Shown here piece after piece: positions 14,267 to 50,554 of a DNA stretch of 64,000 nt. Under the pieces are notes generated by a model. That model saw only the letters and a program-made list of their open reading frames with translations, made no database searches and was not told where the DNA came from. Numbering within the stretch: the first letter of the stretch is position 1; each line of letters opens with the position of its first letter. Position numbers and translations under genes: made by a program. Source of the DNA: Ulva prolifera. Lineage: Eukaryota > Chlorophyta > Ulvophyceae > Ulvales > Ulvaceae. The DNA lies in NCBI GenBank assembly GCA_023078555.1, contig CM041200.1, positions 4,492,936 to 4,556,935 of the forward strand, given 5' to 3'.

Positions 14267-20875
<6,609 letters not shown>

Positions 20876-26970: not shown

Positions 26971-27022
<52 letters not shown>

Positions 27023-27849
27023 TGGTTTTGCGCATGAGCTTCTGCTTCACCTCTTGCTTCCGGATCTGTTCTGGTGTCCGTCCATGCATTGGCGCGAGCC
27101 TGCGCAAACACTCCTACTCCTGCTGGCCCTGGGTGTATTGTGTGGCAGTGCGGCAACTGTTGCTGTGGACCACCTGCCTCGACCCTTGCATGCAACGGCA
27201 ATTACTCCTTCATCTGCTTTCCAGATGCTCATCGGGACCTTGGCACCTCGGTTCCCCTGAGAGCGCCTCCCGTGCTGTCCGTGCCCTGCATGCACTTCGC
27301 GCGCCAGTCTCTCACACACACACATGCTGCCTGACCGCCGCTCATTCATCACAAGCGGCATTGCGGAGCACGCTTGCGTCGGGTGCATTCGCGTAGAGCA
27401 GCGCTGTCACTGGTGTGCATGAATGCCCATGCATGGGCAACATGCGTGGGGTGCTCCAGGCTGGCATGGTGACGAAGCTGGCGGCGAGGACGTCTGTGCT
27501 GGCGGCGATGAACCCTGTGGCGCAGTACGACCCGGAGCGGCCGCTGGAGGCCAACACCGGCTTGCCGGCGCCGCTGCTCAGCCGCTTTGACGTGGTGCTG
27601 GCGCTCGTGGACGGCGTGAACGAGACCAGGTGCGCCACCTGCAGACACAGCCGTGTGTTAATTACAAGGACAAAGCCAGAGGCAGGCAGTACCGCAGGAC
27701 ACAAAGAGGGGCACCACGTACACAAGGGACCGCCGTCACTCCACATGGACCGGAGCCATGCGTGGACACAGCGGTGCACATGCACTCAATGTCCCTATAG
27801 ATGTGTGGCTGCGTAATCATGCGTGATTACACGCATGCATACATGCACG

Positions 27850-27920
<71 letters not shown>

Positions 27921-29806
27921 GTGCTGCGTGCGGGGCTTCAATCTTTGGCTGGCATAACCGGTAGGGCTGTGGTACGTGCCCGTGCCCGGCCTAGTGCCAT
28001 GACTGCGTGAGTGGATTTTTGCGTGTCAATTCCTAGCAATAGCTCGATGCCCGGCGTCTGTCCTTGTAACTACATGCATGCACGCCGCGGTGCCGCGCCG
28101 GGGGCGTGGTGGCTGACCGCCCAGGGGTGACTGTGTCGCGGCGGATACTGTGCGGTGGCTGCGCGACCAATGCTTGCAGCGTATCACCGCGAGGGGGGTT
28201 GATGCTGTGGCCAGGACATGCGGCGGCGGACTCGCAGTTCTAGGCGCGTCGGCAAGTCGTTCAGAATCCAGGATGCACTTGAGTACGCTGGCGCCCGGCG
28301 CCATCGGCTCCTGCAGCGCCAACACCGGCTGCATCACACGGTGTTCATGAGGGCACGTAGCTGCATCGCCCTCCGCTACACGCCTGTCTCGATGTGAGAG
28401 AGGTCACCATACGCGTCTGCAGGGATTCCGCAATGGCGGCCCACATTTTGCAACTGGACGGGGCCGGGTGCGAGGAGTCTGCGCCGGGGGACGACGGCCG
28501 CGTATGCATGCCCACGGTAGGCGCTGCGGCGCCGCCGCCGTGGCCGGTGGGTCAGCTGCGAGACTACGTGGCGTGGGCGCGCACCACATTCACCCCCACC
28601 GTGACGCCCGCCGCACGCGCGGTCCTGCTGGCGTACTACCAGAGGCAGCGCGCCGCCGCGAGCTACGACGGCCGCGCCGGCCAAGACCGCGTCACGGTGC
28701 GGCTGCTGGAGGGGCTCGTGCGGCTGTCGCAGGCGCACGCGCGGCTGCTGGCGCGGCACACCGTCGGCGAGCAGGACGCGTGCGCGGTGCTGCTGCTGAT
28801 GCAGCGCTGCGCCAACACGGCGCCGGTGCTCGGCGGTGGCGGCGGCGGCACGGCCGCGCTGTGCACCTGCGAGCTTGACGACGCGGCGCACGCGGCGGCG
28901 GCGCGGCGGCTGATGGACAGTCTGGGGATGGATGACGGGCCGGGCCGGGGGGCGTCGGTGTGGGACGCTTCGCTTGAGGCAGCGAAGGAAGAGCACGCGT
29001 GTGCGAAGCCTGAGAGCGCGAAGTGGTCGTGCGACGGCGGGGGCACTGGCAAGGTGAAGGGGCTGTGGGATCAGCCTGGCAAGAGGGCGGCCACGGCGGC
29101 GGCCGGGGCGGCCACGGCATCCTGTAAGGTGGCAAAGTGCATGCCCCCGCCGCCGCCGAGGGCACCGTCAGCCCCTGTAGGACACAGCACCACAGCGAGA
29201 AGGCCGGGGTGGGCCTCCGCCGCGGTGACTCCGCCGCACGCGCAGCAACCTAAAGTGCCGCCATTTCATACGGTGGCTACGGGGGGAGGCAGGCCAGGGG
29301 GTGGTGGGGGATGCGTGGTCGTCGCACGAAGCGGGTCGGTGGAGGGCTGCACCGGCGCTGATCGCACGGCACACGGCATGCATGTACGCACTGCTGGTGC
29401 TGTATCGGGCTTTGCTGCGACGTGTGTGCCAGGGGACCCTGCATCGAGGCGGCCGAGGTGGCCTGCAGTGCAGCATGCAGCGTCAGCACCTGCAAGCGGG
29501 GCGGGAGCCGCGGAGCAGCAGAGGTGCCGACCGGGCGCGCTGGGGCCAGTGCATGAGGCACATGCATTGGATCTGCTCCATGCCAACAGATCTGCTGCAC
29601 CTCCAATGGGTTCGCTGGTGGGATCTGCGGGTCCGTGCGGTGGTAACAGCGCGCCGTTGAGGGAGATCCAACCTGCGGTGCAGCCGCTGCACGGGGGGAG
29701 GTTGAAAGCGGCTGCAGTGGCGCGTCCGAGGCCTCACGCCACAAGCGCGCCTGTGTTTCACTTCCATGAGGCAGACGAAGAGATAGATCTGTCGGACATA
29801 CTGTAA
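24709..29806 (+). CDS. MCM9: MCM9, MCM-family helicase of homologous recombination
   Basis: MCM9 partners MCM8 in a hexameric helicase for recombination repair. Supported exons are 24709-25262, about 25469-25622, an uncertain piece near 25690-25760, about 26030-26374, 26763-26970, 27460-27629 and 28423-29806. The N-terminal domain has zinc-finger-like cysteines (CTTCQAP, then CPQPSC) and TNYQEVCIQ. The AAA+ core has Walker A GDPGTGKSQ, Walker B ICCIDEF, sensor-region MNPVAQYDP and arginine-finger LLSRFD. The winged-helix region reads YYQRQRAAA and VRLLEGLVRLSQAHARL, which is MCM9-like. A long low-complexity C-terminus ends acidic (ADEEIDLSDIL). The first exon is missing from this model and exon edges at 25.6-26.1 kb are unresolved. 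Two introns carry long simple repeats. Confidence 0.9.
26974..27022 (+). repeat. Poly(C) tract, 49 nt
   Basis: It begins three bases after the exon end in MCM9, so the donor reads GTGCCC and continues into 49 C residues. It lies on the sense strand. Confidence 0.96.
27662..28069. mobile_element. Possible retroposon relatives in an MCM9 intron
   Basis: TTACAAGGACAAAGCC at 27662 and its inverse TGTCCTTGTAA at 28059-28069 match the conserved end of the short retroposon family. They may be two opposed fragments or the two ends of one element with terminal inverted repeats. Nothing in between decides this. Confidence 0.45.
27852..27919 (+). repeat. (GT)n microsatellite, about 34 units
   Basis: An uninterrupted GT dinucleotide run of about 68 bp inside the last MCM9 intron. 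Confidence 0.97.
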
Positions 29807-30927: not shown

Positions 30928-33387
30928 CTACACAGCAGCTGGGTAGCCTGGTGGAGGGGCTCCAGCGTTGTTGTTGCCATAAGGTGATGGACCGGTGTTG
31001 CCGTACTGCGCAGGCCCGGAGTTGCCGTAAGGGCCGGCGCCGTAGGGGCTCCCGCCGCTGGGGCCTTGCCCGTGAGGGGACCCCGCACCATAGTTGTACT
31101 GCTCGTTTCCGCCATATTCGCCCGGCGGCTTGCTGACCTGGGCAGCCGGCACACCGGTGGCGGTGCCGTGGGCGACAGGCTGCCCGAGAGCGGTGCCTCC
31201 CGGGATGTAGTTCCCGTACTTCGCCGAGACATCATACAGCGCGGCACCGACCGGGTTCGACGGCTTCTGCTGCTTGCCGCTTGCGAACGAGCGCGCAAAC
31301 TTCACGATCATGCAGCAGCATCCTGCACGCACCGCAGCAGCTGAGCCCCGCGCGGCCAAGCACCACACACCTCGAGCACCACACGAGCTCAGTGCTGCAG
31401 CCGCCGCTTCGGAGACACAGGGCAGGAGGGGCGCACCGCAGACTAGCAGGGTGATCACGATGCCGAGCGCCAGGAGCGTGAAGCCGATGATCAGCTGCAC
31501 AGCACAGCATGTCAGCACTCGTCGTCAACCAGCATGCTGCACGAATGCATCGTCAGACAGCTCAATGAAACTGCCAGACCCCGGCTGTTGCGCCACCACA
31601 CAGGGCAGTGATGTAGGCCGATGCTGAGGCACGGCACGCCGGGCGCTGCAGTGCAGCGGCGCACCTTCTCGCTGGTCTTCAGCCCAAAGTCGCCCCGGCC
31701 GTCGCTGATGTCCAGGAAGTACAGGTACGGGTCCCGCTCGTGCCGCACACGCACCGGCACCGCGAGCTGCCCGACAGACGCGACGCTCTGCAGGCGGACG
31801 TCGTCCCACGTCGTGGCCGGGAAGTCGTTCAGGAAGCACCCTGCACAGGTGCGCGGCGGTGAGGTCCAGAACACGCGCAGCCCACAGCCGCGCAGCTGCA
31901 GCAGCGCTGCTGCCGCCAGTCGCGGAGCCGCGTCCGCCCGATGCGGTGCGTGACGGGAGCAGTCACGGGTGTAGGTGTGTGGGCTGGCACACGGAGGTGC
32001 TGAGCAAAGCATACCTGGCCCAGTCGCCCCGGAGGGCCGGTCGGGAAGCGTGCCCTGAGCAATGGCCCACTGCTCGTTTCGGCTTGTCACACGGACACAG
32101 ACCTCAGCCGGCACATTGGTCTTCTCGCACTGGAAGTTGTTGATAGTGCTGCCTCTGGGAGTTCCACCCTGTGCGCTGCAAGTGTTCTGACACCTCCTGC
32201 ACAGGCACACCACGGGTGTTGCATACATGCCTGTAGGTATGTAGTTACAAAGGACAGAGGCCGGGCACCGAGCCGCTGCTAGGAGTGCACACGCAAATCC
32301 ACTCACTCACCAGTTCCGTGCACGCCCACTACGGGCAAGTGCACTGCACATGAGAGACTACAAAAGCGTCTTCACAATTAGACAAAACACAGGCATCCAG
32401 CTTCACAAGGAAGCAGCCATTGTAGGTATGTATGCGTGTGTGCATAGGTACTACGTATGCATGTAACGCAGTCATGTCCAAAGCAAACCCCTCGCCCACA
32501 TACGTTGATGGCTTTGTCCATGCGGTCATTCACACTATTCTGTCATCACACAGGACAGTAGGGGCTGCTCCGTAGCAAGCAGCGCTCCATGACCAGATAG
32601 AGCAAGGACCAGACGGCCCTGCAGCACCAGCCGGCAGCATTAGGCGCACACCGGAAGTCTTCCTGGGCTCTTTGCACATTTGAGTTTGAGGTCGAAGAGG
32701 AGGAAGAGCTGGATCGTATGCATATGTCGTCAAAGCGCTCAACGGTTGAAGTGATGGCTGGCACACTCACGTTGCCGACCTGTACAACCATGCGAGACTG
32801 TCAACACAAAGGCGGTGCATGCATGCCCAGGCTGACCGCAGATGAGGGAAAATTGGAGTACGGTGGGGCCACACCCTGGTGTTCTGGAAGAAAATGGCAA
32901 AATTGAAGTTACAATTTTGGCTTGGCTGAACGGTGTTGGGCGCATCTTCATAAAACGTCACACGTGGGTATGCGCCAAAAGTGTCCCGTTCATCAAGTTC
33001 AAACATGAGATCTTCCTGTGACTCGCTCCTCGGTAGAGCTACATTATTCAAGGCAGCGTTGCATGTACTTGACAGTGAGTATGTCCAATCATTATTTGAT
33101 GCCGCGTTGAAATTGTCGACAGCTCCTCCATTCCAAGCATCAACAGCGACCTTGAACTCATCTGGAGAGCACACAGCTTGGCCGGTAAATATGAGCTGCG
33201 GCAATTGCACTGACAGCACGTCAACCAAGGCAGTCAGACCAGCAGGTCTAAGCCAAACATCACAGCCCATGACCGCTGACCCAGACACAGCACAGAGACG
33301 CACCAATCCGCTCTCCTCTATCATCATCGAATGCTGAAGTGATGAAGATAATTCCAACAACTGCAGAAGCAGAATTATGACCCACAT
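30928..33387 (-). CDS. Paralogue A of an unassigned type I membrane-protein family
   Basis: The family is not recognised. Exons 1-6 lie at 33161-32875, 32779-32652, 32196-32015, 31840-31665, 31494-31437 and 31322-30928. A signal-peptide exon probably begins at 33387 (MWVIILLLQLLELSSS), with its donor unresolved. Ectodomain hallmarks: VAVDAWNGGAVDNF and NDWTYSLSSTC in exon 1, CSAQGGTPRGS and VPAEVCVRVTSR in exon 3, VRHERDPYLYFLDISDGRG in exon 4. Exon 5 is a single transmembrane helix (GFTLLALGIVITLLVC). The tail is Gly/Pro/Tyr/Asn-rich and ends PPPGYPAAV, unlike its paralogues. Exons 3 and 5 match paralogue B in length to the base. Function unknown; a surface receptor or wall protein would fit. 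Confidence 0.75.
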
Positions 33388-35603
33388 CGATGTGTCGGCA
33401 TGCGTGTACAGATGTTCACGAGAACCAAACAGCACGCTACACATGTATGGGGATCGCACTGATGAGAATAGGCCCCGACACACACAGGCAGCAGATCGTC
33501 CCAGCGATGCATTGGATGCAGTCACCAATGCCCTGCAGCAAGCTAGCACAACTTTCAGTGCATTCAGAGCTTCCGACGTCGAGCACATGTTCTGGTTGTC
33601 GATGGATATACCAGAAGGGCCCACCCACTCCAGCGCTGAGCTACAGCAATACGACTACACACAGCCATATAAATATTGTCATAGACACCATCTAAGCCTG
33701 CGTATGCGACTCTTAGGGAAACAATGACAGCTATCGACGGGACGGACCAGTCTATATGCTTCCATTTCGAGCATTTCAAAGCAAGTCGCGCCTCAATGAG
33801 ATGACGCAGAGAAAATCACAGACTGACGAGGAAGATGCGACTTGCATCTTCTCGGGCACGGCCGGGACACAGCCAATGTGTTCAGGAATGAGGACCCATC
33901 ACTCCCTGAACAGATGATTACAGCTGCACCAGGAAGAGCACGCGCACCTCCAGCAGACCACATCCACCTTTACCTTTGCCTTTCCCCATGAGAACAAAAA
34001 GGTCTGACTGGAACGGTCGCTAGCAAAGGCTTCCTATGGTGCCTCAAAAGGTGACCAACGGTTCTGCGGAGCAGCGCAGCTGTCAAGGAATTGTTGACTT
34101 GACGCAAGACACAAGGAAGTTCCTTCATCCTCTTTCCATGTTGACTCAGCGCACATGTGGTATGCAGCGTAGGAACGGTGGACTGCCTGTATACAACTGC
34201 AGTCCCGTCGCGAGATACCCGTGGCCATTCTTCAGGATCCTCGTGCTGTGGCCGGGCGTGCAAATGCTGACATGACAGCCACCAGGTACGGATGGATGAT
34301 GTCACGTTTGTCGAATCCAATGGTCATAACGTTCGAGGCGATTGGCTGTACGTGAGTGCGCCCAGTTACGTATGTGGCCATGCGCCTGCTTGCAGTTGCC
34401 AGCCCACTGACTGCAAAGGTTGCAGTGCTGACGGTGTCCTCAAGAACCGCTCTGCTCTCCCTTCAGCAGAATTCATTGTTCGAACGTGGCAGTTGTCGCT
34501 ACTTAGTACGCCTCTTCCATTTGGTCACGGGAGACCCATCGGGCCAAACTGACCAAGAAAGCATGCCTGTACCAAACGGACAGTGCTTGGCCTGCCATGT
34601 TTACCAAGCTTGCCATCGTCAAACCGGTGTATGGTGTATGCTCGCCCAAGCGGGAATCGCAACTTCATATTGGAGCCCGTTCTTGATTCCACAACTGCGC
34701 AGTCCACGGCCGCACTGCCTCCCCTCAAGACGTGGCACATTGATCGCTGACTCGTCCTTGCAATTGTGGACCAGCAGTGGTGGACTGTAGCAAGCCCTCT
34801 GTGCAAGTGGCCACTGCTCAGCATTGGATCCTATCTGCCTGATGATAGAGGCAGTCTTCAACGTTTGGTGTGACAGCCCTCTAGACAGCTGTGTTACAAG
34901 GACAAAGGCAGCAAGGCGGGCAGCACCGCGAAAGAAGCAAACAGACGAAGCAAACAGCCAGACACCCACGCACGCGAGACCCGCCACGCCCAAAAAAAAA
35001 CCCCCATCACCGGCGCAGCAAACGACACAGATCCGCAGACCGCCAAGCACACACCCACACACCCACAAACCCACAAACCCAAACCCTCACACGCATGCAC
35101 AGACCCCACGGCCTACACACAACAACACAACCGCTGACACCACAACGCCCGCCGCCGTACGACAGGGCCACACCCAACACACTGCTGCCTGAGGCCGCCC
35201 ATCATGGCCGCCCGATTGCCGGGGGCCGCCCTAGCCCCAAGACCCAGCAGGGCACCTCAGGCTAGCCGCAGCCCGCTTACAGACTCACCCTTCTCAGCAT
35301 TCGCTCCTGTCACCCCTTTCACCACAAGCAATGAAGCAGCTCACCATGTCCACGGGCAAAGGCCGCGTCCGCCTGTGGCTCATTACCCGCCACGCAATTC
35401 CTGCACACAGCGATGCCAGCCTACCACTGCCCCGGGGTGACCAGTACAGCCACTTCCCCAACAGCATTTTCACAGCGTCATGCAGAGCAGAAATGCTGAA
35501 CAGAACGGGCGGTGTACAACTGCTAGTTGTGCAGGCAGCACGCCGCCGCTCTCAAGCACCCGCTTGAGCCAGAGTCTGACCGCTCAACCTCGGCGCCAGA
35601 TCA
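33388..35603. other. Intergenic region
   Basis: No conserved gene was recognised. It contains the 5' flank of paralogue A and a copy of the short retroposon family near 34.9 kb. Confidence 0.45.
34894..35100 (-). mobile_element. Short retroposon copy
   Basis: Read on the minus strand, the copy ends in CTTTGTCCTTGTAA at 34894. It shares over 150 bp with the copies at 41533 and 52021, including GCGGTGCTGCCCGCCTTG and the GGCGGTCTGCGGATCTGTG region. The far end fades into CA-rich sequence, and no clear target duplication was found. Confidence 0.75.
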
Positions 35604-37488
35604 CTACCCAAGGGAAAGGTTGTACATCTCTGCGATGTGGCTCGCAGCGTCGACGCCGCCTGCTGCCATCGCCGCCGCATTCTGCTGCGCCATGGCCTGC
35701 AGCGCCTCCTGCATCGCTGTGCGGCCACTCAAATTATACGAAGAGTACCCCTGCATCTGCTGCGTAAGGCCCGCCAGAGCCGCCTGCTGCTGCGCCGCAG
35801 CGGCCTGGGTCGCCTGATTCAGCTGCGCAAGGGCCTGCTGGTGTTGCAGTGATGCGGCCTGCATCGTTTGGGTCAGCCCCGCCATCGGATTGTGGTAGCT
35901 CGGCTGGTAAACACCCCCCTGCAGCTGGTTGAGCACATCCAGGCTCTGCTGCTGCTGAGCAGCCGCGGCCTGCATCATCTGCTGTAGCGCTACGTGGGAC
36001 TGCTGCTTTTGCTGTGCTGCAGCCTGGAATATCCCGGCTACCCCGGGAGATGCCGACGGCGAGGCCATCTGCTGCCAAGGGGCAAAGCCCCCGGTGGCCG
36101 CCGCCGCAGCACCCGCCGCCGCCGCGGCGCCGCCCTGAGCACCCACGCCACTCGCGCCTTGTCCGTACGCTGACACCTTCAGCTGTTGCAGCAGGCTGGT
36201 GATCTCAGTCTTGAGCTGCTGGATCCGCGCCTGCATGCGTCCAGTCGCGTCGAGAGCTGTGGTGGGCATCGCACCGCCAGCCACCCGATTCTCGAGGACA
36301 AGCCCCAGGCACATGCATGCTCATGTGAAACAATGGCTCAAGCGGATCGATGCGAAGGACGGGTGCGAACCGCCCGATCCACCTCGCCGCGCGAGGCGGA
36401 GTGTTGGCAGCCCATGAGACGGACGAATGTGGCCAAGGGGTCTGCTTTCATTGCTACGAGTGCACAGCCTCGTCCAGGCGCAGCTGCTCAGAGTGACGTG
36501 GGTGCCGTGGGGTGGTGTACATGGCATAGAGGCGCAAGGGGGCTGCGTTGCGAGCGGGCGCACGTTCTCGGAGCGCGCGTAGCAGAGTGCCTCTACCGGG
36601 TTGCGCTTCTTGTATTTCTCCACCTTGGTTGCTGCGCGCTCCAGGGTTTGGTTGAGTTTGGTCAGAGCAGGCACAGCGCCGCCCTGCAGGCGCTGCGCCA
36701 TGGCCTCCACATCCGCCGCGACCGTCTGCATGAAACTGCAGGCGCCACCAAAAGTGAGTTCCGGAGGGGGGGGGGGGGGGGGGGGATGTGTTTCTCAGTC
36801 TCTACGGCCTCCTGAGAGGTAGTAGTATGCCAGGAGGTGTCCACGACACATGCCAAGTGCAGATGAAGGCTATCGGCGCCAGATCCATCAGCTTGGTAAG
36901 AGTGAACGGCCCCACGTAGTAGCAGAGAAGGGGCGCACACATGGCTGATTGTGTGCTGAGCCAATGCCCACAGCAAACTGTACATGGCTACATCATGCCT
37001 TACGGGAACTGCAGTGCACACACGAGGCAGGAATGCCCAGGTCGAAAATGCACAGGACACACACGGTGTATGTATGGATGTCTCTGAACATCGTTGCGGA
37101 TGCCATGGGCAACAGCGCTCTCGAGTGGTGTTCACCCACTCTCCAGCTAGCGACACAATTCAAGCATGATTGGCAACAAGCACGCACAAGCCCCAGTCAC
37201 GATGTGTGGTCTAGCTGCGATGGCATCCTGTCAGCATATCAGTGCATCAGAGGTGCAGCATTCAGAGCTCAGGCGCTTCCACGTGCAAGAGCACTGGTCC
37301 AGCTGACGGTGCAGCGGCACTGGTAGACACTGCAAACGTTTCGACAAGCACCTGGCGAACTCTGCCAGCTTTCCTCCGCGTGCAGAGTAGATCCCATGGA
37401 CTTTGACCGCCATTTTCACGCTGTTCATCGCGAGTGACATGGGGTCAGGTGACGCGAGAGAGGCCATGTCTGCGACCCCAAACTCCAT
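35604..37488 (-). CDS. Predicted four-helix-bundle protein with Gln/Ala-rich tail
   Basis: Three exons join in frame: 37488-37321, 36725-36597 and 36230-35604, 307 residues. Residues 1 to about 120 look all-helical and follow the order of HeLo/MLKL/MCAfunc-type bundles: helix 1 with AMNSVKMAVKVHGIY, helix 2 GKLAEFARCLSKRLQ, helix 3 VPALTKLNQTLERAATKV followed by EKYKKRNP, and helix 4 ARIQQLKTEITSLLQQLKVS. In those families the bundle binds membranes or scaffolds cell-death responses. The rest is Ala/Gly-rich, then Gln/Ala-rich with repeated LxQxxQAAAAQQQ-like phrases, ending AEMYNLSLG. Such composition can be prion-like. The fold assignment is pattern-based and not certain; a generic coiled-coil protein is the alternative. 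Donors and acceptors are canonical and phases are all zero. Confidence 0.6.
36766..36785. repeat. Poly(G) tract, 20 nt (poly(C) on the sense strand)
   Basis: It lies in the first intron of the four-helix-bundle gene. In the transcript the C run ends about 40 nt before the exon 2 acceptor. Confidence 0.95.
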
Positions 37489-38957
37489 GTTTGCCCGGGT
37501 CCTCGCGGTAGCTCTGGCCTCGAAGCACGCCAGACAGACGCAGCAACTTTACTTCAGCTATCTAGCGATTACCGGCTTCAAACAGCGGCTGTTCTCGCCG
37601 CATTCGATCGGCGCTCCAGCGGATCCGGGAAGGGTCCCGTATTACAGCAATGTCTCTACAAGCAGCGTGTTTGTATGGATTGCCGAACGCTGAGGTCACG
37701 CGGTATGGTGAGAGTGATGGTGGATTCAGCAGCATGCCGGCGTGTGTACGATGCGGGAGCGGGGCCCCGCGGGGCACGAGATCACCTTCGTGTGCCGCGG
37801 ATCCGGGTGCTTGCCGCGCAAGCAACTTGAAAATTCGTTGGGCCCACATGTGGCCACACCGAACTTTTTCATTAATACGCCGCCAGCAACTGAAGACAGA
37901 TCGAATGACGCTCGTGACCTCGCGAGGCCTCGCTGATACAATGTGGACACTGAGGCCATAAATTAATTTAAACAATTGTCCCTCGAGAGCTCTGGCCGGT
38001 GCAAGGCTCGGGCCTCAGTCCCGCCTAGGCTTGCAAGGTCATAGCATATTGCAATGCAGACCCATGCATAGATAGCTCTGGCCAAGGGAAATGCCCGTTC
38101 AAAAATTGACAGCCACTGGCAGACGATCGTCTGTGAAGCTTCAGGTACTACCTAGTAGCCCTGGAAAGTCCCTGGAAGCCAAACATGAGATATATGCAAT
38201 GCAGCTAAGCCAGCCGGTCCAGAGCGTCCCAGGACTCACGTGACAGCTTGTACCTTCACGAAGCCGCGGCGCGCGCGCCACGTGCATTCGATACCCTCGG
38301 AGTTTATGACCCTGATAAACTGACCTTTGGGTGCTGACTTCAACGCAGGTAGCATGCTGACACGCTTGTGTGATAGCAGGACCGGTGCCGGCAGGGCCCT
38401 CCGGTTCCTTTCCGAGACCGCATTCGTTCCGAGAGGCATGCGTGTTCCCCTGGCATGTGTACATGTGACGTGGCGCATGCATAGCACAGCAATTCCCGAA
38501 TTGCTGTGTCAACACAGGGCAGACGACCAGCATGCACACCCATGGGTGAGCATGTTGGGTGCGCAAGCTGCACTGAAATATTAAATGTGCTGAAATAGCT
38601 TCAATTTGGCTCGTGAAGGCCTACAGTAGTAGATATGTACATTTAATGGTTAACAATTGAACTTAAGACTAGTGCTCTGCGGCCCTGCCCGCCGGACGTA
38701 GCATGGCGAATGCTTGCTTGATCATCTGAGCTATGATCATGATTCGCCTGCCGTTTGGACTACTGATCACAAAACATCACACAGACACCCCTGTTCATGA
38801 TCAGCAACACCACCTGCGCACATGAGCGCATGCATGCCAGCACTGACATACTCCCACATGGATGCATCCACACCCGCGTGCATGCTCATGTGACGGAATG
38901 GGCAGTCCCGTGCGATGACCTCGCCGCTCACTGGCCATCCGGCTTGAGCGGCGGGCC

Positions 38958-39002
38958 GTCCAATTGCAATGCATCGATGTCCAATTGCAATGCATCGATG
39001 CA
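38958..39002 (+). repeat. Direct repeat, 21-bp unit, two copies
   Basis: GTCCAATTGCAATGCATCGA occurs twice in immediate succession, followed by a further GCATCGATG. It looks like simple local slippage. Confidence 0.9.
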
Positions 39003-39383
39003 TCGATGGGATATCCCCGCCCTCCCTCCGCGCGCTTTTGTGGGCTCGAGCGCGCCTGCTTTGCCAGCCGCCGCACGCCGCTTGGATTGTGGCCGGCTCC
39101 GCCTGTTGCTGGGACGCCCGGGCGAAGCCTGGGCGCGTACAGCGGCTTGGGCATGCTTTGGCACCGGCGTCCCGGAAGGTGATGGCGCTGCGGTGTTGCT
39201 GTGCCATACTGGCCCGCCTGTGAGCGGGGTCGGATTGTGGGAAAGGTCTGGGGGGGAGGGGGGCTTGTTGGGGGGGTCGGCGGCGGCCGGGCTGTTGTTG
39301 TTCTGTGAGTGGGCCCTGGGCTGCGTGAAGTGGGCACTTAAGTGCCCAATTGGGTTGGGGGGTGAGTGGGCGTGCGTGTGCGT

Positions 39384-39470
39384 GACAAGGACAAAGCCGG
39401 AGGGGCCGGTAGCACCGCCAGGACAACGAGCAAGCACATAACAGCCCAAAGCACGCGCAGCAGAAGAGTG
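39384..39470 (-). mobile_element. Divergent retroposon copy
   Basis: The minus strand ends GGCTTTGTCCTTGTC, with a diverged version of the GGTGCTGCCC segment before it. GT-rich sequence continues to about 39.85 kb and may belong to a longer copy. Confidence 0.5.
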
Positions 39471-39702
39471 GCACCCACACCGAATCCGCCCCAACTCAGG
39501 GCCCAGTCACAGCAAACACCCGCAGCATGACAGAAACCCACTGAACACGCACCCACAAACCCCCACACCACACCCACGCACGCGTCCCTGCGCCAGCCCC
39601 CAACACACGCACCCCCGCGCCTGCACGCAGTAGCATTCCGCCGTCCGCGCGGCCACGGTGGCCCAAGCTGGCAGCCCGGCCGACGCCGGCCCGATGCGCT
39701 AG

Positions 39703-39722
39703 CCCCCCCCCCCCCCCCCCCC
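39703..39722 (+). repeat. Poly(C) tract, 20 nt
   Basis: An uninterrupted run of C with no gene recognised around it. Confidence 0.95.
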
Positions 39723-40437
39723 AACCTACTTCCCCCCCGCAGCCGTCCCTCGCTTCACCCCCGCACCCGCACCGAACGGCCCGAGTGGGGGAGGAACACG
39801 GCAGCGCCGTCACCCGCAGACCCGCCCAGGCCACAGCGCGCCCAAGACCCAGCGCACCCACGGGATGAGTCCGAACGCCGGGTTATGCGGAAGAGACGGC
39901 GTGCGCCGGCCAGAGAAGCACCTAAACGTAACTGCCTTCCCAGGCCTGCGGAACGATCCTGCAACCCATTCAAGGCACATGCCCATGAGACGCACCCGCC
40001 GGTGCCTGAGCTCGGTCGCCACAGCATACAAGCATGTAAACGTGTGCCATGACGATATCAACCGTTTGGCACTGAAGAGCGGATCGCTTTGTTCGCCTAT
40101 CCGGTTATGTTCGTTCGTTTTCGCCAAAGCTGGTTCTGCTTGTCTGCCGCGGAATTCCGCTTTTAAACTGGCTGGCCCAGCTCGAGGATCCGGGAGGGCA
40201 TCCCGCCCATCCCCCCCGGGGTGGGCTCAGCTACTCAGACTGACGGTGGGGCGTTGAGGCAGGAGAGAAGCGTGACTGTGCATGCCCTTTTCTGTGCACG
40301 CACGTTTACTTGATTTAATTCCGGTTCTGCAGAACCTCATGAGGGTACACATGTGGACATCACATCACAACAACACACGAAGTCGAGCCGCTATAGCCAC
40401 ACGCGGCTGCAGAGCACCCTTTTCCACGTTACATGTA

Positions 40438-40510
40438 TTACCAGGACAAAGTTGATTAGGCGGGCAGCACCGCGAAAGCAGCAGGCACTGCAAGGACGCA
40501 ACTACCAACA
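40438..40510 (-). mobile_element. Short retroposon fragment
   Basis: GGACAAAG followed by CGGGCAGCACCGCGAAAG on the plus strand matches the conserved end of the family. The rest is unrelated. Confidence 0.6.
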
Positions 40511-40852
40511 CACTTTCCACTTTACATGTGTAGCTGACGAACCTATAAAGATAGCCCCCGCTACATGAACACAATCCGAGGTCTAACAAGGCTCTCAGTA
40601 TGATGTATCGCGGTGACCACGTTCGCTTAGCACGAGTGATGATTGGACTGGCTCTCCCACAGGCGCGCTGTGGCCTCCGGGATACCCGTGCGCTTTCAAG
40701 GCCTGCACTGCCTTCGCAGCGAGCGGTAAACACCACGCCTTGGGATATGCCTGTGCAATACCCAAATCATGACGAGACACTCGGAAAATGCTCTGACATG
40801 CACAGCGCTAGTGTTGGCTAACGAAGTCTGCTCGCCGATCAACAACGGGGTC

Positions 40853-41030
40853 GAACAGCCATGGCATGTCTAGTTTGCGGCTGTTGCGGTCTCCGGAAGG
40901 TGCGTCAAGCCGACAGCTTTGAAGTTTGCTGTGTTCTTTCAAAGTTATAGCTACGGCTTCTGGCACCTGCGTGCACCCATCCAGACGCAGCCTGTGTAGC
41001 TGTCTCTGAGAGACAACCTGGCAATCAGAC
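40853..41030 (+). repeat. Segmental repeat, copy 1 of 3
   Basis: GAACAGCCATGGCATGTCT begins a segment resembling 47402-47560 and 53597-53740. This copy is the most diverged. It lies upstream of paralogue D as the second lies upstream of C, so it is probably part of one duplicated block. Confidence 0.6.
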
Positions 41031-41436
41031 CTGGTGACAAAAGGCACAGGATGCTTCAGCCCTCGATCGATTCATATCATGCATTGATGCTGAAGCACGC
41101 ACATTTCTCTGACACGTTCGGATCCTACATACAGCTGCGATTCAAACGTCCATCTTTGCTTACCCGCAGGCCACGGCCACAGTTGAGGCTTAGCAGCCAT
41201 ATTGTTGGAGTGTACATTGTTCTGATGTCACTTAGCAATGGTTCTCCATTGTCAGCGGGGAAGCCAGACTGGGCGCGTGTAGAGCAGGGCCCATACGCTG
41301 TGATATCATATGCTGTGATTGATTTGCATGCATATGTCACTCCCGATTGCATGGGCTCATTTGTGGTGCTGCTGTCTTCTCTATGTTGTGTCATTCGTGT
41401 GAGTCCACAATACTGACAACTTTTAACACAGTGCAG

Positions 41437-42439
41437 AAGATTAGACAGCGCAGCTTCATTGCGTCTCAGGCTTTCACCCTTGTGGTGGCGGTCGCGGCGT
41501 CTTCACGGCAGGTGTGACCTCCCTCTGGTGTGTTACAAGGACAAAGGCAGCAAGGCGGGCAGCACCGCGAAAGAAGCAAACAGACGAAGCAAACACACAG
41601 ACACCCACGCACGCGACACCCACCACGCCCCAAAAAGAAACCCAGCACGTGCTGGTGCACCGGCGCCGAAGACACAGATCCGTAGACCGCCAAGCACACA
41701 CCCACACACCCACAAACCCAAACCCACACCCCTCCCTCTGGTGTGACCATGTTTCTACAAACGGGTTCCGGCAATTGGAATCTGCGTCCGGTTTGTTTGT
41801 TGCAGAAGCTGGCGCAGTGCAGCCATGTAGGAGGCGTTACGGTGTGTGCTGCAGCTGTTGGCATCTACCGAACCATCGATTACCTCAGGAATGACAAGAA
41901 GGCAGGAAGCGAAGCGCAGGCAAGGGAGCAGGTGTATTTTCTGATTGTGTGTCTCATCAGCCACATCCCTGTCGAGCTCAGGATCACCACCAGGTGATCC
42001 TGCAGGGATCTGTGTTGGTATGCCAAGCGTGAAGGCTGACTGCGTTTATCGAGCACATCACATGGTTGCTTACATCGACGATATCACGTGGGGTTTTGTT
42101 GTGCAGCTGAGGGGAGCCCTTGGCAGCCTTGGCTGGGGCGCAGCGCTGTTACTTGTCGCCTTCGGTGCGCCCCGCATATGTGCTTTCTGTCTCGTGCCAG
42201 GCGTATGAGTCCACACAGACACGGCGCGAAAGGCTGCAGGAGGTGGCTACGTTTATGCGCACCGTATCTGGTCCACTGTGCAAACGAAGGCAAGAAAGTG
42301 CCTTGGGATCGAGGATACTGAAGATGCTCCTGAAATATATTGGAAAGGCGATGCAGGGGAAGTGACAGCTGGCGAAGGAGAAGTAAACAGTGCAGCCACT
42401 GCAGCAGATGTTGACGGCGCCTGCTGGCATAATCGTTGA
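41437..42439 (+). CDS. Paralogue D, deletion derivative of the membrane-protein family
   Basis: Three parts of the family are visible. A signal-like exon, 41437-41511 (SFIASQAFTLVVAVAASS), is homologous to the 5' part of paralogue C. A transmembrane exon of exactly 58 bp, 42107-42164, reads LRGALGSLGWGAALLLVAFG. A tail exon, 42240-42439, reads GYVYAHRIWSTVQTKARKCL and EDAPEIYWK. Exons 1-4, the whole ectodomain, are absent. The first part ends and the second begins in phase zero, so a small signal-helix-tail protein is possible. The tail stops early: sequence beyond 42439 still resembles the end of C but in another frame. No start codon was fixed. It may be a pseudogene. Confidence 0.5.
41518..41745 (-). 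mobile_element. Short retroposon with 15-bp target-site duplication
   Basis: CCTCCCTCTGGTGTG stands at 41518-41532 and again at 41731-41745, bracketing a 198-bp insert (41533-41730). On the minus strand the insert ends in CTTTGTCCTTGTAA. A 15-bp duplication with no terminal inverted repeats fits LINE-style retroposition of a short non-autonomous element. It sits in the intron between the signal-like and transmembrane exons of paralogue D. Confidence 0.85.
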
Positions 42440-43100
42440 TCCTGAGTGCCAAGATGGTCCCTGCAACTAGGCGCTGCCAGCATTGCTGACTCCCCCACAC
42501 ATGGTAGGGACGAGCCGACCACGCCTTTTGAAAGCGTCCAATCCCGTTTCAACAACTAGTGCACATATCCACTTTGGTATAGCAACCGACTGGTGGCCTG
42601 TTGAAACAACAACTGCCAACACCTGTGGCGACGATGTGCTGATGGCATCAGCGTCTTCGATTGGAGACACCTCATCTATGCGCCTGTCTAAGAGCACAGC
42701 ACTGTTACAGCAGTGCAGTGGATCATGCAGGCAGAAGCGATTGGACCGCACGGCATAGATCATCAAGACTAGGGTGACCCACCAACGACAGACACAAATC
42801 TTTTGTGAAGTAGATGCATGCCAATACCGTCAGAGTTCATGGAAGTGCATCGGCAGCAGCTCCGCTGTACTGCAGAAACGGCAGTGACAGTCCTGTTCCC
42901 AACCGACCGGCTTGCATCCAGAGAATATGCCCATGGGAACACGGAGGCATCCAGAAGCTCTTGGAGCAGCTGGGTTGTGGTGCGTTACAGGTGGCGCTTG
43001 AGGTGCTCAACATGCTGGACAAGGCTCAAGACGCTGGGAAAGGGTTGAGATCCATCAGGAGCTTTGTAGAAACGTGGCTACGAGTCAGTCTGTTCAGCAT
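42440..43100 (+). repeat. Segmental duplication, 3' flank of paralogue D
   Basis: The sequence after D resembles the end and 3' flank of paralogue C up to about 51.0 kb. GTTGATCCTGAGTGCCA, TGTGGCGACGATGTGCTGATG and AACGGCAGTGACAGTC each have close counterparts. This shows the duplicated block extended beyond the gene. Confidence 0.7.
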
Positions 43101-44499
43101 GTGCAGTGCATCCACTTGCATTATTGCTTGTTGCTCGGACGGGGTAGGTGGGAGAAGCTTCAGCGGGCCATGCGCTACTGTATCACGTGAGCTGGGATCT
43201 AGGAGGTGTCACCTTGTGCTGTGGGTACGATATGCAATCATACATAGTATGCAATCTACCATACATGCACTACAAGCACCCTGGACGCCCATTTGGGGCA
43301 GCAGCCTCCTGACCCGTCCCCTTGTGTGGCCGAAGCCGCAGAGCCAGACTGCACCACGTCTGACTATGCTATGCATATCACATTTACTTATCTCAGGGTT
43401 GTAATGCAGAGGCCATGAATTTTGCAGTAGGCTGTTGTCACCTCGCATCATTCTCACAGACTCGTGTACATCTGCAGAGGGCATGGCTGCAGGTGCAGTC
43501 AGGATCTCGTGTTGTTTGAAAATGACTGGACTTCCGGGTAGCCATGCCTGCGCCTGATGGCAAAACCAGGCCGAGTCAAAGTCTATTGCAGACACGGACA
43601 TACAGGCATATGCGGTCAGATGATGATCACATCACGCGGCCACGCCAGGCATGCATCCACATAAAACCCTGTAGACACACTGGCAGAACCCTGCGTCCTG
43701 TTTGGCTCGCACAATAACACAATAATGCGACAGCATAAGGACCGCAACAGCAGTGACCAAATCAGTCCTGCCGGCAAGTGCAGACGGCAGTGGCATATGT
43801 ACAGATGGCCTTTGCAACGTGAAATGCAGCAGCTTTGCTGCGGCCAAGATCCGAAGTCAATGACTGAGAAGCTCCTGCTGAGCGTCACTGGGGAGTCCCG
43901 AAATCCAATCTGCAGCAGGGACCTCAATCACCTGCACCCTGAGCACGAAGTGCCGACAAAATTCACATGTGATCCAAGATATGGACGTGGTATGCCACGA
44001 CTTCTCTATGCAACCAGATACAACAAGTTTCCTACACAGATGCTTGTGTGGCTTGTTCAAGTACGCCCTGCTGAGCAGGCACCAGGCACCTCCCAGCACT
44101 GTAGCCCAGCGACCAATTGAATGCAGGCCCGGCAAAGCCATGTTCAGTATTTATGCATCTGAGGACACCTCTGCATGCCAAAGTAAGTCCCCATCTGCAG
44201 TTGTTGCCCTGCTACGTCTCCAGACCCATGCAGCGCCGGCGCAGCATGAGATCACAGTGGCCATAGCGCACTGGACATGCATTCAAGGTCATAGGTCCCA
44301 TGGGCAAGTGTGCTCCGGTTGCGCCTTGTTCTGGCAGATTCAGAAGTCCAGTAGTCCCTGCCTGCTAGGGCTGCTTCCCTCCGCCATGCTATATTGACAA
44401 GGATACGAGCGCAGATCCTGGCCAAATGATAGATGTCCATATCAAAGCGTGGCTGACAGCATCGCTCCTGGAGGCGTCCACCTGACCACGATTCGTCTA
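43101..44499. other. Intergenic region, no recognised gene
   Basis: Short frames only. It forms the 3' flank of paralogue B (minus) and the far flank of the D block. Confidence 0.45.
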
Positions 44500-46367
44500 C
44501 TACACCAGAGTGGGAACGGATTGCTTTTGCCCGGCTTGTGACTGCACATTCCCATCGGTCGCTGCACCATGGCTGCCTTCTGGTGCAGAGCCGTCCGGCG
44601 CGTAGCTTGGAGGAGTGCAAGGATCATCACGACACTCCGGATCTCCATCTTCTTCGCCAAGGGCTATGTCAACATGATCCACTGCGGCCGCATGTTCCGC
44701 TGTCGCCGCTGAAACCAGCTGTTCGTCAGTTTGTGGAGGGTCACTTCCAGCGAGAGTTGTTGACGGAGCTGCATCAGGGGAAGCATCGTTGGGGCGAGCG
44801 TGCTCCTCAGCGACATCGCGCGCAGTCCAGCAGCCTCTATTTGCGTACATGCAGCCGCTTCCTGTACCATTCGCCGCTGGTAGATTTGCACACAGGGAGA
44901 GCAGCATGCTCTGGTCATGACGATCACAGCCACAACTGTTGTGGGCCATAAGCACAGCCTGAAGGACACACCACCGAGCAGCAGTGTGACGAGGACCCCA
45001 ACACCAAGGAGGATGCAGCCGGTCTTCAGCTGCACAAAACAGCACCTCAGACGCATGAGCAGCTTTCACGCAAGGCCCAGGCAAACCAGGCATAAGTACT
45101 TTGCGATGTCTGAACCTACCCCTTGTTTGCTGAAGGCGCACCTGCCCTTTATTGATGCCCCCGAAGTCGCCCGTGCCATCGGTGATGGCCAAGAAGTACA
45201 GGTATGGGTCCCGCTCATGCCTCACACGCACCGGCACCATGGCGCCTTCCTGCTGTTCAGCAGCGTATTGAAGGATGACGTCGCTGAACCGCCTACTTGG
45301 AGGTCTGGGAATGTAACAACCTGGAACGGCCCTGTGTAGCTGATGAGTGTGGGCGCCACAAGGCTGCTTGCCCGCCCCCATTCAACATTAACAAGCTTTA
45401 CGGCATGTCTGGCAGAGATCAAAGCGCAACAATACGCTGGCACAGGGCATGGCACTTCAGGGCCTGACCTGGGCCAGAAGGTCCTGCTGGGCGGTCTGGC
45501 AGTGTGTCATTTGCAAGCGTCCACTCGCCATAGCGTCGAGTCACACGGACGCAGACTTCTGCCGGTACTGACTGCAGCTCACACCTGAATGCATCGCCAT
45601 AGAGGCCACTAGGTTTGCCGCCTTGAGATTCGCAGTAAGACACGCATGCCCTGTAAGATTGCATGGTCAGCGCTCTGCAGCTGGGGCTGAAGCTGACAAT
45701 GGCGGCCCTCCGTGTGCCGTAAATGAAGCACAATTCGAGTGTGGCAAAATTGAGCTGGATATGCTGTAGCGTACACGGTGGCAAGCGACAGTTGACACGG
45801 ACCAACAACAGCAAGTTTCAGGGTCGTGTTCCCAGACCTGAGCTCCTCTTGAGCCATGGCAGCGCTTCGTTGTGGGTTCGGGTCGGGGAGTGCCCGTGGG
45901 AGGTGGTGGCACAGTTCGGAAAGGCTGTATGATACATTAGTGTCAATTGTCACGACACCAACCTGCAGCCACCGCATCAGTGATGGACTTGACTGGTGAA
46001 GCAGAAACGCGAGCCAACAGCTAGCAGACGAAAACATACAAACAAGGCAAAATGCAGACGAAGATCAAGTGGATCAGCACCGTAGAGTTGAGGTAAAGGA
46101 ATTCATAGTCCAGGATGCATCCGTTGTTCATCTCAACGGTAGGGGTGGCCCTTCTAAAGTAAGACCGGCGAGGATATGTGCTGAAGGTGCCACCCTCGCG
46201 AGACTCGGCTTTGAGGTCTTCGAACATATCATTGTTGGGCAGTGCCATAACATCTGAGCCGGGGCTGCAAGAGCTGGACAGCAAGTACGTCCAGGCATTG
46301 TCAGATGTCATGCTGAAGTTGTCAACGCCTCCACCATTCCAGGCATCGACAGCCATGTCAAATTCAT
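44500..46367 (-). CDS. Paralogue B of the unassigned membrane-protein family
   Basis: Exons 1-6 lie at 46367-46081, 45962-45838, 45650-45469, 45320-45142, 45029-44972 and 44861-44500, all in phase. Exon 1 (287 bp), exon 3 (182 bp) and exon 5 (58 bp) equal those of A. Marks: MAVDAWNGGGVDNF, SREGGTFSTYPRRSY, CESQGGKPSG, VPAEVCVRVTRRYGEW, VRHERDPYLYFLAITDGTG. The transmembrane helix is GCILLGVGVLVTLLLGG. The tail is acidic, contains GDPECRDDPC, and ends SVPTLV, close to the C end. Six cysteine positions recur between A, B and C. The signal-peptide exon upstream of 46367 was not found; a candidate opens MSLLPVLVLG near 46.54 kb. Confidence 0.75.
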
Positions 46368-47928
46368 CTACAATACGCACTGAGTCAATGGGCTGCAGTA
46401 GCAATGATTTCAAGATTCAGCGACTGCTCAAAAGGGTGATGTGCTGTGTTCTTGTCTGTGCAAAGAAGATTGTTGGCGCGACCATGGCCCAGGACAAGCA
46501 CAGGAAGCAAAGACATAGATTACTATCAACAGCAATACGCACCAACTTTGTTGCCTCTGTCAGTCTTGACTGATTTGGTCACTTCAACGATGCCCACGAC
46601 TACAGCACACACCGAGGTTGTATGGTGGCACGGCACGCAGGCCTATCGCTCAAGTGACATCAACGAATAGCAGGGATATCAGATTGAGTGTGAACATCTG
46701 CATGCAAAACCGAGTAGATCGCACTCGTCAACACCAGCCCTGCTGCAAAAAGAATTATATACAGGCGGGCCTTCCACGGACTGCTCTGCCGGAACTTCTG
46801 CACCACAACACATCAGAAGACGATATATATAAACCGACACATTATACGCCACATCATCAAAGGCGGGACATCAAGGTAGGAGATTGCAGCACATGGTTCC
46901 GCGCATGTGTGTTCGCAAAACGTTGTCAGTGCAGCTGACACTGCGGTTGCAGCGCACCTGCCATTGATCCCAGCAGCACAGGACACGCTTCATGGCTGTG
47001 ATGTGTGACTGTCGGCTCCAAGTGAAACAGCAGGTGACTTCGCTAGCCCGGTCACTGTGTCGTCGCACGCAAGCCCACTTGCTCGACTGTTTCGGTGATG
47101 AGTGCACTAGCCCATTTGGCACTGCAGCAGCATATAATTAGGCCTCGTGGTGTGCAATAGACTCCGCATGGCGGTGTCTGCCGTGTCTCCACATGCATAG
47201 TGTTTTCTGCTCATGTTCGCCGGCGAGCCATGCCCTGCCGTGTGAGTTACAAGAACCAAGGCGAGGAGGACACGACCACATGTCGGGAAGCAGTCATCTG
47301 GAACACGCTGTGTTATCATTTGCGAACGGATCGTGTTGGAGAATGAGGCGTGTATTCCTTTTTGGCCATCTGTTCACCTCAGGGCGACCAACGACCAGGT
47401 AGAACAGCCATGCCATGTCTTGGTTGGAGATGCTGCGCTCTTTGCCAGGTGCGTTGGCTCGCCAGCTGGCAGTGGGCAGAGTTCGATACGTCTTACGATG
47501 CCTGCGTGGCCTCCAAGCGGCCTCTAATGCTGTCTTTGACCGGCGAGCAGGCAATCAGGCCTGATAATGCACACACGGAAGTGTTATACCCCACATCTGG
47601 ACTCGTCTGCATGCCTCTGGCGCTCATACTTGTCTCGCATGTGTGTGGATCCTTGACGCAGCTACGCCCGAAAACATTGTTTATCCGCGCAGCCCACGTC
47701 TGAACAGGTTGCAGTAGCCACGCAGCTACACGTGATTTTTTATTATTATTATTTTTTCCCCCCTTGTGTGTCAACCGCCTGGCTGACCGTCTCGACCTGG
47801 GATATGGTAAAGCCAGATTTGAGGCTTACAGTGTTGACACCAATTGGGCCATGGTGATGCTGCCAAGTCGCGTCGTATACATGAAACTCGTATCTTGATC
47901 CCACAGGCTGCAATGTGGTCCCCATGTT
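46368..47928. other. Divergent region between paralogues B and C
   Basis: About 1.5 kb that should hold the first exon of B and the promoters of both genes. The segmental repeat copy at 47402-47560 lies here. No separate gene was recognised. Confidence 0.45.
47402..47560 (+). repeat. Segmental repeat, copy 2 of 3
   Basis: GAACAGCCATGCCATGTCTT opens a segment close to 53597-53740 and more distantly to 40853-41030. GCGCTCTTTGCCAGGTGCGT and CTGCGTGGCCTCC are shared with copy 3. Confidence 0.8.
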
Positions 47929-50554
47929 TTGTGTTGTGAGTCATGCGAGTCCAGCTGTCTGAAATTTTGTGCCACTGTGCAGAAGATTGGTGAGCGCAGC
48001 CCTGTGTTGGCTTGCCTTCAACCTGTCATGGTTACAGCAGGGCTCATCGTAGCAAGTGTGACTTCCTCATGCTGTATGTATTGTCCTGCAAGGCTATCAT
48101 GCATCTTGACAGAGTGTGTGCTGCACGTACATTGCCCGTTGCCAAGTCTGAGTCAACACAGTGACAGCCAACTGCAGCGTGTTGTGCAGTCGTTGGAATT
48201 CCAATTCTGGTCAGATCCACACGAAATGGAAGAGGAGCAAAAATTGGTGCGGTCGCGCGCTGCCTTGGTGGCTGCAATTGTACTTTTTGATCGAGACGTG
48301 TCATTCTGCTGGCTGTGGTCTCATGTGCCATATGTGCACTGCATTTTTGTCACTCATACACTGATTGTGCTTCGCCAACGATGCTGTGACCCATCGCGCA
48401 CGACTACAGACCAGTTCAATACCGCTGTTGATGCCTGGAATGGAGGGGCTGTCGACAACTTCAGTCTGGCGTCGGGTAATGATTGGACATACTCCCTGTC
48501 AAACACATGCGGCAATGGCTCAAATGCGATTCCACTGTCTCAGAACAGTATGCTCGAAGACCTGAAGTCTGAGTCGCGTGAGGGGGGTACCTTCAGCTCA
48601 TATCCCCGCTTGACATACTTTGAAAGTGCCACTCCTGATGTACAAATCAACACTGGATCCTGCGCCTTGACTTTTGAATTCTTTCATCAGAATGCCTCGG
48701 TGATGCATCCCTCGAGCTTCAGCTGGAACTATACTGATCAGTCTCCTGACCTCTGCGCCCTGCTCGTGCGTGGCCTCCACCCCAAACGTTCTGATGTGGT
48801 CGTTGCAGGTGGGCCGGGTACAGATGAGTACGACCAAACAAAAGACTTATTCAGACATGTGCACACACTTTGAATCTGCACCTGAACCACAGTATGCCAA
48901 AAAGAAAGCAGCGCCCACGAAAAGAGCGCCCACGAAAAGTCCAGGCAGGACCACAACAGTCAGAAGCAGCCCTGTGGTTAAGAGCGGATCGCCTGCTCCA
49001 CCGCCTCCTCCGACGCCTGCAGAACTATACAGGTATGCACCCACGTCGCACATCGATGTTGTTTCACTGTCTCATAAGCCCTGGTCACGTTCGGTGGGCT
49101 CCCCTCTCGCATCACCAGCGCTGCATCGTCCACAACCATGTGATGGTCCCGTCAGTGCAGAAGCGTGTTATCCACTCTCCACCTGGTCCTTCAGAGTCCA
49201 TTTCCCGCTTGGCTGCACTGACAGTGCGTTGCCGCAGGGCATGTACAAATCATTGCAACTCTCAAGGTGGCACACCCAGTGGCAGCAACCTGGATTCATT
49301 TCGGTGTGAGCTTGTGTACGTACCAACCGAAGTCTGCATCCGTGTGACTCGGTTCTACGGCAAGTGGATGGTCGCGGATGGCACGCTGCCCGATCGCATC
49401 ACAGGCCCTTACGGCCCAGGTCAGGCCCTCAGCCACCAGGCACTGTGCCAGCGCTCCTGTAAAGAACCATGCGTGTTTAACAGCCCCGGAGGCTTTCATT
49501 GAGGCGTCGAATGCGGGTGGGCTCCTCGACAGGTGACGAGGCCATCGTGCTTATTATCTGGGCGGGGCTGCTCCAGGTTGCTTCATCACCAACCCTCCAC
49601 ACTGGCTGTTCCGTGACGTTCTCCTCCGGCAGTACACCGGGCCCGCCGGGGCGATCACGGTGCCGGTTCGAATCAGGCATGAGAGGGACCCATACCTGCA
49701 CTTCTTGGCCATCACCGACGGCACGGGTGACTTTGGGCGGACGCCTAGGGAGCAGGTGCGTCCTTCCGCTCGACGTCGTTAACACCAGCAGGTGATGTTC
49801 AGTGCACGGATGAAGCAGGTCCTGTGTTGAGCTGAAATGCTTCTTTCTTGCATCAACAGCTTCACATGATGTGGTGTGTAGCGGAGGATAGGCTTCATTC
49901 TCTTGGGTGTGGGCGCCGGTGTCATACTGCTTGCCTTGGGTGCGACCCTCGATTGTGCTTGTTGTCCTATCCTGGATGTGTTCGGTCCAGGCATACAAGC
50001 CGCGACTGCTTGCAGGAGTTGGCTACATTTATGCGTACCGTGTCGTATCACGTGTTCGCAACCAGGCACAGAAGTGCCTTGGATGTGTGGATGCTTCTCC
50101 TGAAGACGCGCCTGTAGTATACTGGAAGGATGCTGCAGAGGTAGCACATGGCGAAGAGGAGAGCAGCACAGCCATCGCAGCATGCGCCGGGTCCTGGCCT
50201 GATATCATGCATGTTGATCCTGAGTGCCAGGATGATCCCTGCGATCTGGGCCCTGCCACCATACCCGACTTCCCCATGAAAGCTTCATCTGAGGACATTT
50301 CTCCAACAAAATTGAAGCATTCAGAAAAACAAACTGCTGTTGCAGAAGAGGAGACCAGTGCAGCCATTGCAACATGCATCGATGCCGGGCCTCATTCTGT
50401 CGATGTAGATCCTGAATGCCAGGATGATCTCTGCGATCTAGGCCCTGCCAGCATACCAGACTTCTCCGCGCCTGGTGGCAACGAGCCCGCAACAACATCT
50501 GGAAACGATCAATCTCTTCCCTCAGATTCAGTGCCCTTCTTCACTCTGGTATAG
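47929..50554 (+). CDS. Paralogue C of the unassigned membrane-protein family
   Basis: A hydrophobic N-terminal exon (MVTAGLIVASV) ends near 48055 in phase one. Exons 1-6 follow at 48410-48699, 48809-49032, 49238-49419, 49577-49755, 49882-49939 and 50016-50554. Marks: TAVDAWNGGAVDNF, NDWTYSLSNTC, SREGGTFSSYPRLTYF, CNSQGGTPSGS, VPTEVCIRVTRFYGKW, IRHERDPYLHFLAITDGTG, then a helix GFILLGVGAGVILLALG. Exon 2 is longer than in A and B and carries a Lys/Pro-rich insert. The 179-residue tail is acidic and holds two copies of a 64-residue unit with DPECQDD and CDLGPA, ending SVPFFTLV. Exon 5 is 58 bp as in A, B and D. The start codon is uncertain; 47929 is simply the first ATG of the open frame. Confidence 0.75.

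Follow-up and report, generated by a model that had tools for sequence, protein, structure and literature searches.

The 64,000-nucleotide window of the Ulva prolifera genome analyzed here (contig CM041200.1; C5:4492936-4556935) carries a cluster of three paralogous genes, A, B and C, each encoding a predicted two-pass membrane protein, together with a fourth, partial copy, D. Gene structures were reassembled directly from the DNA letters (Table 1), and the exon joins of A, B and C were inferred from splice signals, reading frame and paralogue comparison; the Met exon and the two exons of the first transmembrane helix (TM1a and TM1b) of A were picked by the same means, with B and C as the comparison, prior to any outside homology. 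Gene A (33989 to 30928) and gene B (46993 to 44500) lie on the minus strand and gene C (47410 to 50554) on the plus strand, and their proteins have 465, 452 and 546 amino acids, respectively. Each gene has nine exons with identical start phases (0,0,1,1,0,2,1,0,1); the rough probability that all eight intron phases agree by chance is 1e-7, assuming independent phases and assumed phase frequencies. The introns follow the GT-AG rule in 24/24 cases, with G before GT in 21 of the 24 and G at the fifth intron base in 22. We regard these two-pass gene models as correct with high confidence.

An original prediction, made from the letters of this DNA, had described a clustered membrane-protein family with a common exon plan of one signal exon plus six further exons. 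The lengths it gave for exons E1, E3 and E4 and for the exon of the second transmembrane helix (TM2) are exact, the TM2 exon recurs in copy D, and its observation that lengths change by multiples of three holds for E2, the tail exon and the Met exon as well. The shared phases also stand, whereas the number of exons is nine rather than seven, the Met exon having been missed, and what had been called a signal exon is a membrane helix split by a phase-1 intron between the TM1a and TM1b exons. With the gene models corrected, family searches will from now on need to include the Met and TM1 exons. B and C are arranged head to head, their Met codons separated by 416 base pairs (bp; 46994-47409) that are possibly a shared two-way promoter.

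Architecture and divergence of the encoded proteins

All three proteins consist of an N-terminal tail, a helix, an ectodomain of ~270-300 residues, a second helix and a divergent C-terminal tail. Hydropathy analysis (main peaks at residues 27-45 and 316-334 in A, 26-44 and 318-336 in B, and 27-45 and 351-369 in C; two further, lesser and overlapping peaks in A) revealed two helices, one on either side of the ectodomain, where a lone transmembrane helix had been predicted. A single-pass protein with a cleaved signal was ruled out by the two main helices in A, B and C.

Paralogue identity is 44-63% in E1, E3 and E4, 26-31% in E2 and 17-38% in the tails, which bears out the strong divergence that the original prediction noted for E2 and the tails. 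In a search with the C protein, E1 of B and E1 of A matched at E values (expectation values) of 3.7e-31 and 6.3e-26, confirming the family itself. All three paralogues keep eight invariant cysteines in the ectodomain, and the predicted ectodomain motifs (AVDAWNGG, QGGTPxG, VPAEVCVRV and RHERDPYLYF) were found, slightly altered in B (QGGKPSG) and in C (VPTEVCIRV and RHERDPYLHF). The ratio of nonsynonymous to synonymous substitution rates (dN/dS), which the original prediction had proposed to follow exon by exon, was 0.29-0.32 over E1, E3 and E4 together by a simple Nei-Gojobori count, with high dS (0.97-1.59); one TM1 paralogue pair was saturated. Since single-exon values vary widely and dS is high, these figures show purifying selection only roughly.

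The tail of A (130 residues) is repetitive, with 18 Pro, 11 Tyr and seven YG pairs. The tails of B and C are acidic and carry S/T-P sites, with two and four Tyr, respectively; a P-x-T-P motif occurs once in the B tail and in neither A nor C, and the B and C proteins both end in TLV. The tail exon of C contains an internal duplication of 123 nucleotides (50153-50275 and 50345-50467, 80% identical), which repeats a DPECQDD...LGPA..IPDF segment.

Probable relationship to trypanosome surface proteins

The statement of the original prediction that no known family could be recognized agrees with the domain databases: Pfam gave nothing above its curated cut-off for any of the three proteins, and NCBIfam gave no match above cut-off for A and B, the two scanned. 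It fails against the PDB, of which we searched 177,635 distinct sequences, with matches listed to E 10. A profile of A, B and C returned 6y0d, the Trypanosoma cruzi protein TcSMP, first at E 1.2e-6, followed by an unrelated sequence at 0.85; up to E 10 it listed seven sequences, none of them, judged from their names, a membrane protein outside the family. A alone matched 6y0d at E 2.2e-6, and A without its repetitive tail at 1.3e-6 (other matches: a chance one at 1.7 and 5kmx at 5.9), while the three-gene profile without tails gave 4.3e-5. The confident hit to a described family that the prediction had named as its refutation was thus largely obtained, though mainly through A.

The match of A without its tail comprises two collinear stretches, A 11-71 with TcSMP 5-67 and A 283-340 with TcSMP 229-283 (bias 0.3 and 0.4). 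The similarity to TcSMP takes in helix 1 with the NEF..NAW.G stretch that comes after it and, further on, a V.VR....DPY...T.GT.D.G stretch with helix 2; in the profile comparison a third stretch lies between them in order but is weightless (independent E about 1000). The near-equal residue numbers of the N-terminal match support the gene model of A. A V.VR....DPY...T.G..D.G pattern, defined from these alignments, stands directly before helix 2 in the algal proteins and in TcSMP alike. A reversed-sequence control gave three matches up to E 10 without any family member, the best (0.56) being a membrane-helix piece of BST-2. A profile restricted to E3-TM2 listed 6y0d at 0.004, 5kmx at 0.041 and 5klh at 1.2.

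Several results weigh against a relationship with these proteins. The two stretches are weak singly (independent E 0.023 and 0.066), E1 alone found no family member in the PDB, and the profile of B and C without A placed 6y0d first at 0.0047, near chance matches at 0.021 and 0.022, the signal coming mainly from A. The 5kmx match of the E3-TM2 profile adjoins chance matches, which begin at 0.049, and the ectodomain-only profile was not significant, with 5kmx (0.17), 6y0d (1.7) and 5klh (5.6) mixed among chance matches. These three are the known solved members, and their presence among ten sequences listed out of 177,635 is suggestive rather than proof, because they are related to one another. 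The cysteine spacing is unlike that reported for TcSMP, the tails of B and C lack YG repeats, and the dN/dS of E4 between A and B and between A and C (0.66 and 0.69) exceeds the joint value. Fold predictions, made on contiguous reads of the window, were of no use (mean predicted local distance difference test scores of 33.9 and 38.6 with five and three rows).

In available extracts of the literature, to which the following statements refer, the TcSMP structure (6Y0D), for which T. brucei PSSA-2 (5KLH) served as the search model, is similar to that of the T. congolense insect stage antigen ISA (5KMX), and the helices of TcSMP are predicted at residues 13-35 and 264-286 (PMC8781870). The first helix is a signal anchor in TcSMP_S and most orthologues; TcSMP_S and the African orthologues have two helices, the T. 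grayi orthologue has one, and the TcSMP genes are clustered (PMC4643927). PSSA-2 was described in 2009 with a signal peptide and one helix (PMC2739429), and in 2015 with a signal anchor and one helix (PMC4643927). This surface protein requires its cytoplasmic tail, which has Pro/Tyr repeats, for surface delivery, and the threonine of a P-x-T-P motif is phosphorylated in a MAPK4-dependent manner; a null mutant colonized salivary glands poorly, and its authors postulated a sensor role (PMC2739429). TcSMP1-1 (PMC10286712), judged from its extract, is a different, myristoylated protein of similar name and was set aside.

The algal proteins resemble TcSMP in the two helices that flank one ectodomain, in the N-terminus and helix 1, in the stretch before helix 2 and in the clustering of gene copies; they differ in their intron-rich genes, larger ectodomain and different cysteine pattern, and in the tails of B and C, which are acidic rather than Tyr/Pro-rich. 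The tail of A resembles the Pro/Tyr-repeat tail of PSSA-2, which the available parts of the papers place in the same family as TcSMP, but direct matches of PSSA-2 to the algal ectodomain are not significant. ISA gives the best ectodomain match (0.041 with the E3-TM2 profile and 0.17 with the ectodomain-only profile), in the strand before helix 2, although this match too is not significant on its own. Homology, as read from these comparisons, is carried by the regions surrounding the two helices, where A gives the strongest signal, and by the shared layout. Taken together, these results make it quite probable that A, B and C belong to the PSSA-2/TcSMP/ISA family.

Our literature searches found no algal member of this family in print, a statement only as good as the searches made; papers naming both PSSA-2 and Chlamydomonas concern trypanosome motility or flagella, judged by title and the start of the abstract.

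Genomic distribution, copy D and neighboring genes

We searched the 88.9 Mb assembly (44 contigs) at BLAST sensitivity. Two nuclear loci for the RuBisCO small subunit, whose sequence was recognized as green-algal in type, place the genome in the green lineage. Of the 18 matches to full-length C, 16 fall within the cluster, and two, on contigs C6 and C7 (E 0.10 and 0.51), are confined to the linker and the beginning of E3. The E1 read of A (three matches) and the E3-TM2 part of B (seven) matched the cluster exclusively. Further members elsewhere in the genome were therefore rejected at this sensitivity. Searches for viral relatives confirmed 0/50 and 0/46 pattern matches in viral contigs, those for prokaryotic relatives 0/57 and 0/28 in genome contigs, and PHROGs gave no match for two reads of A.

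In copy D (40861-42439), E1 to E3 and most of E4 were not found. Its join is out of frame and runs into stops, and D is probably a truncated, dead copy. Between its TM1a-like and TM1b sequences lies a high-copy short interspersed repeat (TTACAAGGACAAAGGCAGC...; 41529-41643), also present at 34890-35004, for which a first look gave 1118 candidates, 40 of them scored; among the matches listed, 39/41 are 96-98% identical. By eye, the repeat copy within D apparently has a short duplication (CCTCTGGTGTG) at its two ends.

Just upstream of the cluster, an MCM helicase gene is present in pieces (MCM_OB and MCM_lid; 24657-29806, plus strand). The window also contains a RAD23-like frame with UBA and XPC-binding domains (12754-13689, plus strand) and a frame with a FAN-type PH domain (20528-21229, minus strand).

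Table 1 Exons of genes A, B and C and remnants of copy D (positions in the window)
Gene	Exon	Positions	Strand	Length (bp)	Remarks
A	1, Met	33948-33989	-	42	MGKGKGKGGCGLLE; donor gtgcgc; leads into the stretch matching TcSMP 5-67
A	2, TM1a	33460-33532	-	73	
A	3, TM1b	33304-33360	-	57	
A	4, E1	32875-33161	-	287	exon 1 of the original prediction; AVDAWNGG
A	5, E2	32652-32779	-	128	divergent
A	6, E3	32015-32196	-	182	
A	7, E4	31665-31840	-	176	RHERDPYLYF
A	8, TM2	31437-31494	-	58	
A	9, tail	30928-31322	-	395	Pro/Tyr/Gly repeats, 7 YG
B	1, Met	46958-46993	-	36	MKRVLCCWDQWQ
B	2, TM1a	46725-46797	-	73	
B	3, TM1b	46543-46599	-	57	
B	4, E1	46081-46367	-	287	
B	5, E2	45838-45962	-	125	
B	6, E3	45469-45650	-	182	
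B	7, E4	45142-45320	-	179	
B	8, TM2	44972-45029	-	58	
B	9, tail	44500-44861	-	362	acidic, ends TLV
C	1, Met	47410-47448	+	39	MPCLGWRCCALCQ
C	2, TM1a	47983-48055	+	73	
C	3, TM1b	48190-48246	+	57	
C	4, E1	48410-48699	+	290	
C	5, E2	48809-49032	+	224	Pro/Lys-rich linker
C	6, E3	49238-49419	+	182	
C	7, E4	49577-49755	+	179	
C	8, TM2	49882-49939	+	58	
C	9, tail	50016-50554	+	539	acidic, internal duplication, ends TLV
D	Met	40861-40899	+		MACLVCGCCGLRK
D	TM1a-like	41437-41511	+	75	phase incompatible with the following exon
D	TM1b sequence	41855-41931	+		runs into an apparent E4 end (AREQ); likeness to the PREQ end of C by eye
D	TM2	42107-42164	+	58	
D	tail	42240-42439	+		C-like, early stop

Discussion

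A, B and C are open genes for two-pass, probably cell-surface proteins and, on the sequence comparisons above, are likely to be distant members of a family known from trypanosomes. The proteins would probably be surface sensors or receptors. By analogy with the trypanosome members, we propose a mechanism that is tentative as a whole: helix 1 would act as a signal anchor that holds the nascent chain, the ectodomain would lie outside the cell, and helix 2 would bring the chain back, leaving both the N-terminal and the C-terminal tail in the cytoplasm. The ectodomain may have two lobes, one built from its two ends by E1 and E4 and the other by E2-E3, and a ligand at the hinge would shift the lobes; the hinge of ISA holds a bound peptide, which hints at a site for a ligand (PMC8781870, available in part). 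The divergent tails could then relay the signal through phosphorylation and partner binding. The paralogues would share a common ectodomain scaffold and differ in the linker (E2) and tail, which may set fine specificity and output.

With the same homology, the proteins could instead serve adhesion or surface structure and play no part in signalling, a serious though somewhat doubtful alternative. Pfam finds no domain in them, C has a variable proline-rich linker, and TcSMP is reported, in the extract available, to be involved when the parasite invades host cells (PMC4643927); however, the long, divergent tails with S/T-P sites, and the P-x-T-P motif of B, are closer to the phosphorylated tail of PSSA-2 (PMC2739429, likewise in extract) than to a structural stub.

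That the genes moved horizontally between a green alga and a euglenozoan, in place of descending from an old shared family, appears unlikely. Kinetoplastids are intron-poor, and the eight introns of each gene disfavor a recent arrival from such a donor; the regularity of the splice signals and the deep divergence also speak against a recent event. Two points favor transfer: at BLAST sensitivity the alga has a single locus, and the available part of PMC4643927 lists TcSMP orthologues in Trypanosoma species only.

That A, B and C form a new algal surface family unrelated to TcSMP, the match reflecting a chance likeness of two glycine-rich helices and a short DPY motif, we consider improbable. 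The non-significant ectodomain-only profile, the weakness of single stretches and of the signal without A, and the lack of a Pfam or NCBIfam family are consistent with such an origin, as is the fact that the best match of the reversed control was itself a membrane-helix piece. Yet that control was far weaker, two separate stretches match in order and at matching distances from the helices, the seven sequences listed up to E 10 include no non-family membrane protein by name, and the ectodomain-only list of ten holds 3/3 solved members. A decaying, unexpressed cluster, to which the truncated and out-of-frame copy D might point, is very improbable given the open nine-exon reading frames of A, B and C, their 24 GT-AG introns and a dN/dS of ~0.3 over E1, E3 and E4.

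If A, B and C are indeed distant members of the trypanosome family, then the stage-specific trypanosome antigens PSSA-2, ISA and TcSMP may be the members, adapted to parasitism, of an ancient eukaryotic family whose two-pass surface sensors occur in free-living green algae as well, a view to which we give somewhat less than an even chance. Both PSSA-2 and TcSMP are important for the development of trypanosomes and their contact with host cells, and the age and breadth of this antigen family may exceed what its parasite members indicate. An algal branch would broaden the family and supply distant sequences for spotting conserved functional residues, and would provide a harmless organism for testing what these proteins basically do. 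If the view is right, the original, non-parasitic job of the family would be open to study in green algae.

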